A DNA stretch of 64,000 bases from Hahellaceae bacterium (lineage in GTDB: Bacteria; Pseudomonadota; Gammaproteobacteria; Pseudomonadales; Oleiphilaceae), in the NCBI GenBank assembly GCA_016744695.1, contig JADGDV010000006.1, forward strand, positions 62,001-126,000, in the 5' to 3' direction. The notes beneath the pieces are model-generated. The model saw only the letters and a program-made list of their open reading frames with translations. It was not told where the DNA came from and did not search any database. Positions 1,245 through 5,019 of the stretch are shown here, one piece after another. Position 1 is the stretch's first letter. Each line of letters begins with the position of its first letter. The translations under genes and the position numbers were made by a program.

Positions 1245-3434
1245 TTAAAATGTTCTGCGTTCAGCATTAAGCTGACCAGCCAATGCCTGATCAATCGGTT
1301 CAATACGAATCGCGCACTGCTTAAAAGCAGGCTGACGGGAATGCTCATCTAACAAACCCAGCGAGACTCGGTTTACACAGTCATGAAAGTGAAAGGGTAT
1401 AAACACCATGTTTCTGGGTACACGTTGAGTAAGCTGCACCATAACAACCGCATCTCCACGGCGAGAAGTGATGCGCACATAAGATTGATGATCAACCCCT
1501 AGGTCTCTAGCGGCATCGGGGTTCATTTCCATATAAGGGGTTGGGCTAAACTTATTTAAGTTACCTATCTTTCCTGTTTTAGTTCGGCTATGAAAATGTT
1601 CAACCACACGACCGCTGTTCATCCAAAACGGATATTGCTCATCAGGGCATTCGTTGTTGTCTTTGAATATAACGGGTATTAAATTAGCCTTGCCGCTCTT
1701 TGTTTGAAAATGTCCGTCGGTATATAAACGAGGGTTACCTTTTAAGCCTTCATCATCTTCACTGAAAGGCCATTGAATACCTCTCGCTTCTTCAATTTTG
1801 TCATGAGTCATGCCAGAGATATCAAGGGTTCTGCCCTCTCCTTTTGAAAGCTCCGCCATTTCTTGGAATGCTTCTGATGACGTTTCAGGGAAATGGATTT
1901 TTTCACCGTTAGAGAAACGCTTAGCCATTTGGTTAAAAATCCAAAAATCAGTTTTTGAATCTCCTTTTGGCTTAACCACGGCACGAACCAAATTCACTCG
2001 TCGTTCAGTGTTGGTGAAACAACCTTCTTTTTCTGCCCACACAGCGCCCGGTAAATACACATGAGAATATTGATTGGTTTCAACATCACCGTAGGTGTCT
2101 TGAACCACTAAGAACTCAAGTTTCTCAAGTATTTTACGAATACGGGAGGTATTTGGCATTGAAGTCATCGGGTTAGTAGCAACCAGCCATAAGCCTTTGA
2201 TCTCGCCAGTTTCTATAGCAGAAAAAATGTCCGTTTGTTGCAGGCCACGTTTTTCTGGGAAGAATGATTCATCAATCCCCCAATAATCAGCAATTTTGTC
2301 ACGGTCGGCTTGGTTTTCAAGATAACGATAACCCGGTAAACCCGAACATGATGACCATTCACGGGTTCCCATCGCATTACACTGCCCTGTAATAGAAAGG
2401 CTTGTGCTACCAGGCTTACCAATGTTGCCTGTAATCAAGTTCAGGTTATTAATATTCACAACGCCATCTGAACCATGAGTGCTTTGGTTAATGCCCATAG
2501 TCCAAATGCTCATAGCTGCACCGGCTTTAGCATAGATTCTAGCTACCGTGCGAATAGTATCTTCATCAATACCACACACCTTCGCGGCAGAAACAGGGTC
2601 ATAGCCTTTAACGGCTGCTTCCACTGCCTCAATTCCATCAGTATGGGCGTTGATATAGTCTCTATCTTCCAGACCTTCATCCAGAATCACGTACATTAGG
2701 CTATTAATTAAAACAACATCGGTACCAGGGGTAATGGGTAAGTGAATATCAGCAAACTGAGCGAGCATCGTGACACGGGGGTCAACAACAATCAGTGGGA
2801 ACTTTCGTTTTTCTAAGGCTTCTTTTAAACGCCAGTAAATAATAGGGTGTTGTTCTGGCAGATTTGAACCAAAAGCAATTAAGCAATCAGTATGCTCAAA
2901 ATCATCATAACAACCAGGAGGGCCATCTGAACCAAAAGAGCGCTTGTAACCAGACACCGCAGAGGCCATGCATAATGTAGTGTTCCCATCATAGTTATTA
3001 GTGCCAATACAGCCTCTCACCAGCTTGCCTAATGTGTAAAACTCTTCAGTTAGAATCTGGCCAGTAGACACGACGGCAAAAGAATCTCTGCCGTAGGTTT
3101 TCTGAATACGCTTAATTTCTGATGCGGTTTTATCTAATGCACTATCCCAATCTGTTTTTTGGTAAGGATCAAAGGTCTTTTCTCGCATAAGTGGAGCTAG
3201 ACCTCGACCGGCCGAATCAAATAAGTGATGTTCAAAAACTCCCTTTATGCACAACTTACCCCGATTTACGTCCGCATCAGCCGTACCACGTGTTGCAACT
3301 GCCTTACCCTCTGCATCCAAACCTACATCAATGGAGCAACCGGTTGAGCAATAACCACACGTTGTGTACTTCCACTCAACAACCTGTTTATCTGCAATGG
3401 TAATTGCTTTTCGATCTTTGCGGCCAAATAGCAT
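1245..3434 (-). CDS. Molybdopterin oxidoreductase, assimilatory nitrate reductase-like (NarB/NasA/NapA clade)
   Basis: Probable catalytic subunit of a cytoplasmic nitrate reductase (nitrate to nitrite), 729 residues. A [4Fe-4S] site is formed by C26, C29, C33 and C62. The stretch CMASAV...GCYDD around C155 matches the molybdenum-ligand region of NapA/NasA enzymes. WTMGINQS near residue 315 and a C-terminal dinucleotide-binding domain complete the bis-MGD fold. The length fits NarB-type enzymes and is shorter than NasA proteins carrying a C-terminal [2Fe-2S] domain. No Tat signal precedes the first cysteines. The ATG at 3434 has an AGGGGCG ribosome site. The gene is followed after 9 bases by a fused ferredoxin/DmsC anchor, unlike the usual ferredoxin or flavoprotein partners. 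A sigma-54-like promoter and an NtrC-like dyad lie upstream. Nitrate is the best substrate guess from the clade; other oxoanions are not excluded. Confidence 0.82.
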   Translation of the reverse strand: MLFGRKDRKAITIADKQVVEWKYTTCGYCSTGCSIDVGLDAEGKAVATRGTADADVNRGKLCIKGVFEHHLFDSAGRGLAPLMREKTFDPYQKTDWDSALDKTASEIKRIQKTYGRDSFAVVSTGQILTEEFYTLGKLVRGCIGTNNYDGNTTLCMASAVSGYKRSFGSDGPPGCYDDFEHTDCLIAFGSNLPEQHPIIYWRLKEALEKRKFPLIVVDPRVTMLAQFADIHLPITPGTDVVLINSLMYVILDEGLEDRDYINAHTDGIEAVEAAVKGYDPVSAAKVCGIDEDTIRTVARIYAKAGAAMSIWTMGINQSTHGSDGVVNINNLNLITGNIGKPGSTSLSITGQCNAMGTREWSSCSGLPGYRYLENQADRDKIADYWGIDESFFPEKRGLQQTDIFSAIETGEIKGLWLVATNPMTSMPNTSRIRKILEKLEFLVVQDTYGDVETNQYSHVYLPGAVWAEKEGCFTNTERRVNLVRAVVKPKGDSKTDFWIFNQMAKRFSNGEKIHFPETSSEAFQEMAELSKGEGRTLDISGMTHDKIEEARGIQWPFSEDDEGLKGNPRLYTDGHFQTKSGKANLIPVIFKDNNECPDEQYPFWMNSGRVVEHFHSRTKTGKIGNLNKFSPTPYMEMNPDAARDLGVDHQSYVRITSRRGDAVVMVQLTQRVPRNMVFIPFHFHDCVNRVSLGLLDEHSRQPAFKQCAIRIEPIDQALAGQLNAERRTF

Positions 3435-3593: not shown

Positions 3594-3700
3594 CTATTTA
3601 AAAACACGTTATTCGAGACAAAACAGCCTAGGAAGCGGTAAACTACAAGGCTACTGCCTTGAATAAACCGAAGCCCCTTAGACAAGAATAGGTAAAGACC

Positions 3701-4639
3701 ATTTCTCAATCGACTAACAACATAACCGCAAGCAATTTAATCGTTGTACTTGGCCCTACAGCCTCAGGAAAGACATCGCTTGGGGTTAAATTAGCGGAAC
3801 AGTTTAATGGTGAAATTATTTCCGCTGATTCCAGGCAGGTATATCGTGGTATGGATATTGGTAGCGGTAAAGATTTAGATGAGTACGGAGATATTCCCTA
3901 CCACTTAATAGACATTGTTAACCCTGGTTATGAATTTAATGTTTTCGAATTCCAAAAACATTTTTGCGATGCATTCTCTACAATACAAAAACACGGCAAG
4001 CTACCACTATTAGTAGGTGGCACAGGGCTTTACCTAGATTCTATTCTCAATCACTATCAATTTACTGAAGTCCCTAAGAATAATGAACTAAGATCATTTC
4101 TTGCTGATAAGAGTCATGACGAATTAGAAAATCATCTAAGAAAACTGAACCCTAAGCTACATAACACCACAGACTTAGTTGATAGAGACCGGCTTATAAG
4201 AGCAATTGAAATTGCAGAGGCAGAGAAGAGCGACAATCAACTTTCCACTGGGCTTCCCAAAATCAAACTCCCCAAAATGAACCCTCTGGTTTTCGGTATA
4301 AGGTGGGACCGGCCATTATTAAAAAAACGAATCACAGCGCGACTTAAACAGAGAATGGAGCAGGGATTAATTGAAGAAGTTGAACGACTTCATACTGAGG
4401 GTGTAAGTTGGGCGTCACTTCATTTTTACGGTTTGGAATACCGTTATGTTGCGGCTCACCTGCAGGGAGAACTCAATAAAAATGACATGTTCCAAAAGCT
4501 AAACTCAGCCATTCATACATTCTCAAAGCAGCAAGAAAAGTGGTTTAGGAAAATGGAACGAAAAGGCACAAGCATTCATTGGTTAGACGGTGAATCAAAC
4601 ACCTTACAACAAGCACTGGATATCATAGAAACATGCTAA
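3701..4639 (+). CDS. miaA: tRNA dimethylallyltransferase MiaA, probable ATT start
   Basis: Transfers dimethylallyl from DMAPP to N6 of A37 in tRNAs reading UNN codons (i6A37). The Walker A motif GPTASGKT, the ADSRQVYRG substrate region and VGGTGLY are all present. The first in-frame ATG, at 3851, lies after the P-loop and cannot be the start. Between the in-frame TAG at 3689 and 3851 there is no ATG, GTG or TTG. ATT at 3701 has AGG eight bases upstream and places 17 residues before GPT, one more than in E. coli MiaA, giving 312 residues against 316. I therefore choose an ATT start. The sequence (ADSRQVYRGMDIGSGKDL, FYGLEYRYVAAHLQGEL, AIHTFSKQQEKWFRKMER) resembles MiaA of Bacteroidota and delta-proteobacteria more than the E. 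coli type, and hfq and hflX do not follow. Transfer or a second miaA copy is possible. Confidence 0.85.
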   Translation: MSQSTNNITASNLIVVLGPTASGKTSLGVKLAEQFNGEIISADSRQVYRGMDIGSGKDLDEYGDIPYHLIDIVNPGYEFNVFEFQKHFCDAFSTIQKHGKLPLLVGGTGLYLDSILNHYQFTEVPKNNELRSFLADKSHDELENHLRKLNPKLHNTTDLVDRDRLIRAIEIAEAEKSDNQLSTGLPKIKLPKMNPLVFGIRWDRPLLKKRITARLKQRMEQGLIEEVERLHTEGVSWASLHFYGLEYRYVAAHLQGELNKNDMFQKLNSAIHTFSKQQEKWFRKMERKGTSIHWLDGESNTLQQALDIIETC

Positions 4640-5019
4640 CCAAAATACTAATTACCCTGCTTATTATTGTGGGTGCAGTGATATTTCTCAGACATAAAAA
4701 ATCACTCAACCCGCCAACACCAAAAATCATCACTGTAATAGAGACTAAACCAGCCAATATTATTCAATCTAACATCAAGTTAATTGCGTTTTCGGTGCTT
4801 TCACTCACCTTACTAATGGGCACTGCCATGCTTTTTCTTAACTGGCAAGATGACCATCGTTTGTATGAGATAAAAGTTGTTAACCCGCAATCAGGTAACA
4901 TTCATACTTTTGAAGCTTATAAAAAAGATCTCCAAGGACGGTCTTTTACAACGGTCACAGGTCAGAGAATTAAAGTTTCAGAGTGGGAAAGACTTGAATT
5001 CCAAGAGCTGGAAGACTAA
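4633..5019 (+). CDS. Small two-helix membrane protein of unknown function
   Basis: A protein of 128 residues that I do not recognise. Residues 1-20 form a hydrophobic helix and a second spans about 52-70. The linker between them is rich in Pro, Lys and Ile, and a soluble tail of about 55 residues follows (VNPQSGNIHTFEAYKKDLQG, ending QELED). The ATG at 4633 overlaps the last seven bases of miaA, so translation is probably coupled. A hairpin with a T-run at 5108-5127 follows and may end the two-gene unit. No catalytic motif is visible. Confidence 0.7.
   Translation: MLTKILITLLIIVGAVIFLRHKKSLNPPTPKIITVIETKPANIIQSNIKLIAFSVLSLTLLMGTAMLFLNWQDDHRLYEIKVVNPQSGNIHTFEAYKKDLQGRSFTTVTGQRIKVSEWERLEFQELED

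Follow-up and report, generated by a model that had tools for sequence, protein, structure and literature searches.

The window, which is the whole 64,000-nucleotide stretch of DNA analysed, carries a gene for a tRNA dimethylallyltransferase paralog, here called miaA2, on the plus strand at 3701..4639 (312 residues when counted from an ATT codon). The end of miaA2 is overlapped by an ORF of 128 codons (4633..5019, plus strand), which directly follows miaA2 both in the window and in the four congeners that we compared (G001-G004), where its product is 57-60% identical. The ORF gave no Pfam or NCBIfam match; its product has a hydrophobic N-terminus. As this downstream gene is shared, the miaA2 genes of the window and the congeners are taken to be orthologs. 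A divergent gene at 1245..3434 (minus strand) encodes a molybdopterin oxidoreductase that resembles the formate dehydrogenase alpha subunit, its best NCBIfam match (571 bits, below the cut-off of 666), and is in place in G002 with 87% identity. The gene of its Fe-S partner lies at 3-1235, also on the minus strand, and the pair is 86-87% identical and syntenic in G002. By tblastn (E 1e-4) the pair was not found in 20-kb stretches read from G001 and G004, and the 300 kb of G003 gave only a 33% match.

From its sequence miaA2 is a member of the MiaA family of tRNA dimethylallyltransferases and a predicted i6A37 enzyme. In profile searches it scored 204.3 bits against TIGR00174 (cut-off 148.65) and 204.6 bits against PF01715, and its best matches among solved structures (PDB) are tRNA isopentenyl transferase chains. 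Both the P-loop GPTASGKT and ADSRQVYRGMDIG of the DS..V/IY region, to which we attribute catalytic roles, are intact and conserved across eight aligned sequences, the latter region varying only by R/K and M/L changes. A second, canonical miaA is present in the same genome on another contig (G000:C76). It belongs to the same family (345 bits against TIGR00174) but differs from miaA2 in having several ATG codons at its start and is only 35% and 33% identical to it in two matched pieces. Comparison of the window gene with those of the four congeners from the P-loop onward gave pN values of 0.15-0.19 and pS values of 0.78-0.86, the synonymous sites being near saturation. The frame is full length without internal stops, and of the 33 residues that begin with the P-loop and end immediately ahead of the first in-frame ATG, 31 are identical to those of G003 in the alignment. 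The miaA2 gene is intact and constrained.

Following an in-frame TAG stop (3689..3691, plus strand), the miaA2 frame (3692-4639, plus strand) reads GTA AAG ACC ATT TCT CAA. The original prediction was that this frame has no canonical start although the P-loop lies inside the start-less stretch, and this was borne out on reading the sequence: no in-frame ATG, GTG or TTG is found between the TAG and the ATG at 3851..3853, and the P-loop (3752..3775) is upstream of that first ATG. A product begun at ATG 3851 would have 262 residues and lack the P-loop. The proposed start codon was the ATT at 3701..3703, said to have AGG eight bases upstream and to leave 17 residues before GPT. Both measurements are correct: the AGG at 3690-3692 ends 8 nt before the ATT, which is 17 codons before the first glycine of GPTASGKT (3752). 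When the non-canonical candidates before the P-loop were scanned for duplexes with the anti-Shine-Dalgarno core, ATT 3701 was the best, with -3.8 kcal/mol at a spacing of 6. The putative Shine-Dalgarno sequence, AGGTAA (3690..3695), is weak, and about 25% of the internal ATT/ATC codons sampled in the window genome (G000) and G003 match its -3.8 kcal/mol. The GTA at 3692..3694 scored -0.2 kcal/mol, and no upstream duplex was found in the window for ATA 3722 or ATC 3740.

The length of the start-less stretch was put in context by measuring, in codons, the distance from the upstream stop to the first ATG, GTG or TTG in 245 coding frames, each 150 codons or longer, kept from a sample of 319,554 of the 4,067,888 bases of the genome. 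The longest was that of miaA2 (53 codons) and the second longest that of infC (51 codons); a gap of at least 30 codons was seen in nine of the 245 frames, miaA2 included. The start-less stretch of miaA2 thus exceeds what chance would give. Six of the eight other late-start frames were inspected, the remaining two being those with negative coding scores, and the six comprised infC and five in which an ordinary protein start was seen by eye at the first ATG. Two of these five (C76:123431-124730 on the minus strand and C44:38077-39334) are not fully cleared by this judgement by eye, because the first ATG has no Shine-Dalgarno sequence of -3 or better and the 38-40 codons before it are coding-like, with coding scores of 0.25 and 0.30 versus 0.33 for miaA2. 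All three late-start frames of G003 were inspected; one has an ATG, one a TTG, and the third was taken for the second reading frame of an IS3-type transposase. The infC gene of the window's genome (G000:C44:47812-47814; L087:1474-1476, outside the window) has the start region GCGGAGTAATAACA ATT AAG CGT AAT, which gives the N-terminus IKRNSQGSR from the ATT with CGGAG upstream, and hence infC appears to start at ATT as does the E. coli gene.

The miaA2 genes of the four congeners are 72-76% identical to that of the window. Their start regions are CAGGTGAGCACCATCTCT (G003), TAGGTGAGCAGTATCCCT (G004), TAGGTGAGTACTATTTCT (G002) and CAGGTGAGCACTATCCCT (G001), to be compared with TAGGTAAAGACCATTTCT in the window, which has five extra codons downstream of the ATT and before the P-loop. 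The column of the window ATT holds ATC in G001, G003 and G004 and ATT in G002. A match in this column had been named as the check on the prediction and came out in its favour (ATT in one congener, ATC in three), and ATG, which would have spoken against it, occurs there in none of the four. Thus ATT or ATC is conserved in five of five genus members, and ATT also in G674 of a sister group, but not in G506 or G623 of that group. As the genus members are related, their agreement does not amount to five independent events. Nine bases ahead of the ATT column each of the four congeners carries a GTG in frame, which a gene caller might take for the start; it is at the position of the window GTA and aligned to it without a gap. 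This GTG sits inside an AGGTGA that ends 5 nt before the ATC (three congeners) or ATT (one congener). At that spacing of 5 the AGGTGA gives the ATT or ATC codon a duplex of -6.7 or -6.8 kcal/mol in all four genomes. A value of -6.5 is reached by 27% of 63 unambiguous ATG starts in G000 and 29% of 55 in G003, and by 5.8% (G000) and 7.0% (G003) of internal ATT/ATC codons, 1500 codons having been taken from each. Although synonymous sites are near saturation between these species, within the 45 bases that precede the ATT/ATC column the four congeners share an invariant AGGTGAG, the only run of such length, and it recurs in G674; when the window is added to these (six sequences) the sole longer invariant run is AGGT. 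A second block of the leader that is well conserved is a putative -10-like element, TAAACT (3639..3644, plus strand), within a TAAACTA that is invariant in the five genus members. It was not picked up by a promoter consensus scan, which gave only one site, on the minus strand, where 1.2 were expected. RNA folds of the leader were not notable (z 0.79 and -0.41).

Given these alignments, we consider AUU initiation to be the best reading of the window sequence, and it is likely that the MiaA2 protein of the window begins at ATT 3701 rather than elsewhere. That an AUU/AUC start is used genus-wide, judging from the five members compared, is a broader claim that we hold to be fairly probable. The part of the original prediction that singled out the ATT is upheld by its duplex, the best among the non-canonical candidates, but the congeners' GTG three codons earlier leaves a rival that the window sequence by itself would not reveal.

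This rival is that the genus starts miaA2 at the GTG of the 3692 column and that the window species, by a natural GTG to GTA change, has lost that start and now uses either a weak GTA start or the ATT nine bases farther on. The GTG is found in four of four congeners, is gaplessly aligned with the window GTA, and is followed in the congeners by Ser and by Thr or Ser as codons 2 and 3. If GTG is the start codon followed by Ser, conservation of GTGAG is also expected, and the ATT/ATC column may be kept merely as Ile. What speaks against a GTG start is the sequence upstream of it. Two congeners (G003 and G001) have no Shine-Dalgarno sequence there (duplex 0) and the other two only weak ones (G004, -2.2; G002, -2.4), and the GTA start postulated for the window has a duplex of only -0.2. 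Lack of a Shine-Dalgarno sequence is not decisive, as five of 21 sampled frames that begin with GTG also scored 0 or -0.2. However, all six sequences keep an AG directly ahead of the GTG column, which just two of the 21 GTG-first frames have. One of these two was read as lipB (TTTAG|GTG) and indicates that a likely real GTG start can follow TAG. If GTG were the start, there would be no evident reason to conserve this AG; its conservation is explained if AGGTGA is the Shine-Dalgarno sequence. A GTG start in the genus would also require a separate explanation for the distant ATT genes described below. We regard the GTG as the less likely start, although it is the strongest of the rivals. G003 additionally has an ATG in frame at -19 codons, but no Shine-Dalgarno sequence precedes it.

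A sequencing or assembly error at a position where the true base gives GTG at 3692 would restore the congeners' codon by a single base, and the genome is known from one draft assembly of 77 contigs. However, the stretch also differs from those of the congeners at other bases (GTAAAGACC versus GTGAGCACC in G003), as natural divergence would have it, and the 245 sampled frames showed no other clear loss of a start, with seven of the nine late-start frames (miaA2 included) inspected and two of these not fully cleared. We judge such an error to be improbable. Still less probable is that miaA2 is a pseudogene, or that ATG 3851 is its only start and the product is truncated. That ATG has a good upstream match (-7.4), but the match is coding sequence (SRQVYRG) largely common to the aligned relatives, and conservation at the protein level covers both the P-loop and the residues between it and ATG 3851. 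A pseudogene would not be expected to retain a full-length frame without internal stops and a pN far below pS; the canonical miaA should make loss of miaA2 tolerable, yet the constraint persists. The weakest proposal, entry from upstream through the TTG at 3659, which opens a 10-codon frame (TTG AAT AAA and onward) running into the TAG at 3689, by read-through of the TAG or by a leader peptide with coupled re-initiation, is very improbable. None of the congeners has a comparable in-frame leader: the TAG is present in G004 and G002, but the frame has no start codon between the preceding stop and the TAG, and G001 and G003 have no stop at that position. Nothing tested points to stop suppression.

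More distant miaA2 genes were also compared. The sister group, which belongs to another family (f28), has three full miaA2 genes whose start regions differ. G506 has an ATG at -12 codons after AAGGGG, and G623 a GTG at -10 codons after GAGGG, two codons past the ATT/ATC column. In G674 (L113), where the start region is AGAGGTGAGTATTATTTTG, an ATT at -12 scores -10.1 kcal/mol; a very strong Shine-Dalgarno sequence is followed by ATT ATT TTG, and the TTG at -11 is a canonical alternative served by the same Shine-Dalgarno sequence. As the G674 and G623 proteins are 91% identical and their starts differ, starts can move fast in this group.

A survey of N-termini covered 80 distinct miaA2 loci drawn from 92 rows, 10 second copies and the partial L115 and L122 having been left out. 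Between the last stop and the P-loop, and within 40 codons, only two of the 80 (the window and L043) offer no canonical start in frame. An ATT, ATC, ATA or CTG with a Shine-Dalgarno duplex of -6 or better at a spacing of 3-8 was found at nine of the 80 loci: the four congeners, L043, L045, L113, L019 and L121. L113, L019 and L121 each have, in addition, a canonical codon that is preceded by a Shine-Dalgarno sequence. L043 and L045, both from 'Deltaproteobacteria' and 73% identical to one another, have an ATT after CAGGGAGG. The first reads CCC CAG GGA GGC GTT ATT CCA and the second CCT CAG GGA GGC CCT ATT TCC. In both the ATT is preceded by CAGGGAGGC, is 10 codons ahead of the P-loop and has a duplex of -10.6 kcal/mol. 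The sole canonical alternative in this stretch of L045 is a GTG at -23 without a Shine-Dalgarno sequence; L043 has an upstream GTGCCA like that of L045, but out of frame. The L043 and L045 draft contigs both begin 393 bases ahead of the miaA2 match, and a repeat common to the two may be what ends them there.

In a protein tree of 58 rows (12 duplicate or partial rows having been removed) L043 and L045 fall outside an eight-row group composed of the window, the congeners and G506, G623 and G674, with support of 99/99; the tree does not resolve the branching order among the window, L034, L033/L113 and the four congeners. Because L043 and L045 lie outside the group of the window, two origins of the ATT/ATC start are the simplest reading. 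We would only tentatively suggest, as a possibility that we do not favour over its contrary, that a miaA paralog in several phyla took AUU/AUC starts more than once, in the genus of the window (perhaps with G674) and in the 'Deltaproteobacteria' of L043 and L045. The ATG at -12 codons in L008, L118 and L034 was considered as strong evidence for the start column and dropped, since start distances vary (L117 has a GTG at -15). The canonical start candidates of other miaA2 genes are spread from about -8 to -26 codons, and with such a spread little weight can be given to a column shared with other families. L097, which seemed start-less within 26 codons, was also dropped; it has a GTG at -36/-37 in a low-complexity N-terminus.

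Genes with rare start codons provide the precedents for this reading. infC, which encodes IF3, starts at AUU in E. coli and at AUC in Streptomyces, as described in PMC5472188. It has a non-canonical AUU/AUC start with an upstream Shine-Dalgarno sequence, as is proposed for miaA2; unlike MiaA2, its product is the discriminating factor itself, hence its autoregulation. What marks infC, that no canonical codon is able to serve the conserved protein, is also found in the window and in L043 but not in the four congeners, in which the GTG is available. The pcnB gene encodes poly(A) polymerase, which is also an RNA-acting enzyme. PMC9410913 gives it as the second gene of E. coli for which an AUU start is known, and by the title of a paper cited there this start limits its translation. 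The pcnB protein is unrelated to MiaA2, and its start was proven by experiment whereas that of miaA2 is read from sequence. The Streptomyces sigR gene has an IF3-repressed GTC start that is genus-wide and had been misannotated to an upstream canonical codon (PMC5472188). The parallel is that of a rare start, probably genus-wide in miaA2, hidden by a nearby upstream canonical codon. The codon and the protein are different, and the GTG that would hide the miaA2 start lies inside the Shine-Dalgarno sequence. In Staphylococcus aureus cvfC1 (AUU) and ccpN (AUA) have conserved rare starts with extended Shine-Dalgarno motifs, and the reporter output is reported as about 10% of that of AUG in poor medium (PMC13009471). 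These genes are from another phylum, and the window has a weak Shine-Dalgarno sequence instead of an extended one, although the congeners, L043 and L045 have stronger ones. No published miaA gene with an AUU or AUC start was found in the open-licence literature searched. The prediction had stated that just a few genes, notably infC, are known to use AUU starts. This is fair, but the AUU list also has pcnB and cvfC1, and other rare codons are used by sigR (GTC) and ccpN (AUA). On the best reading miaA2 would be a further case beside infC, pcnB, sigR and cvfC1.

The mechanism that we propose is that the 30S subunit binds AGGU(GA), of which AGGU is at 3690-3693 in the window, and that the initiator tRNA starts at AUU or AUC (AUU 3701 in the window). 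In the relatives the AGGUGA Shine-Dalgarno sequence would happen to spell an in-frame GUG and so mask the real start. In the window species the GUG would have changed to GUA, leaving the AUU alone and removing the misleading codon. Rare starts are described as giving low output and as being discriminated against by IF3 (PMC5472188, PMC9410913, PMC13009471), and from the precedents of infC, sigR, cvfC1 and ccpN we infer low output and IF3 discrimination at miaA2. Initiation at AUU/AUC would be weak and IF3-sensitive, so that the extra MiaA would be kept low and tied to the stringency of initiation, with MiaA2 levels rising when start-codon discrimination relaxes.

Few genes with AUU or AUC starts are documented, and gene callers limited to ATG, GTG and TTG miss such starts. 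The congeners illustrate how a GTG formed by the Shine-Dalgarno sequence itself could disguise one. If our reading is true, a tRNA-modification gene has kept such a start genus-wide, with a counterpart in a distant lineage, and start-codon discrimination would appear to regulate more than infC. An enzyme that modifies A37 of tRNA might then be under IF3-type discrimination, which would link modification that acts at the decoding stage to the fidelity of initiation.
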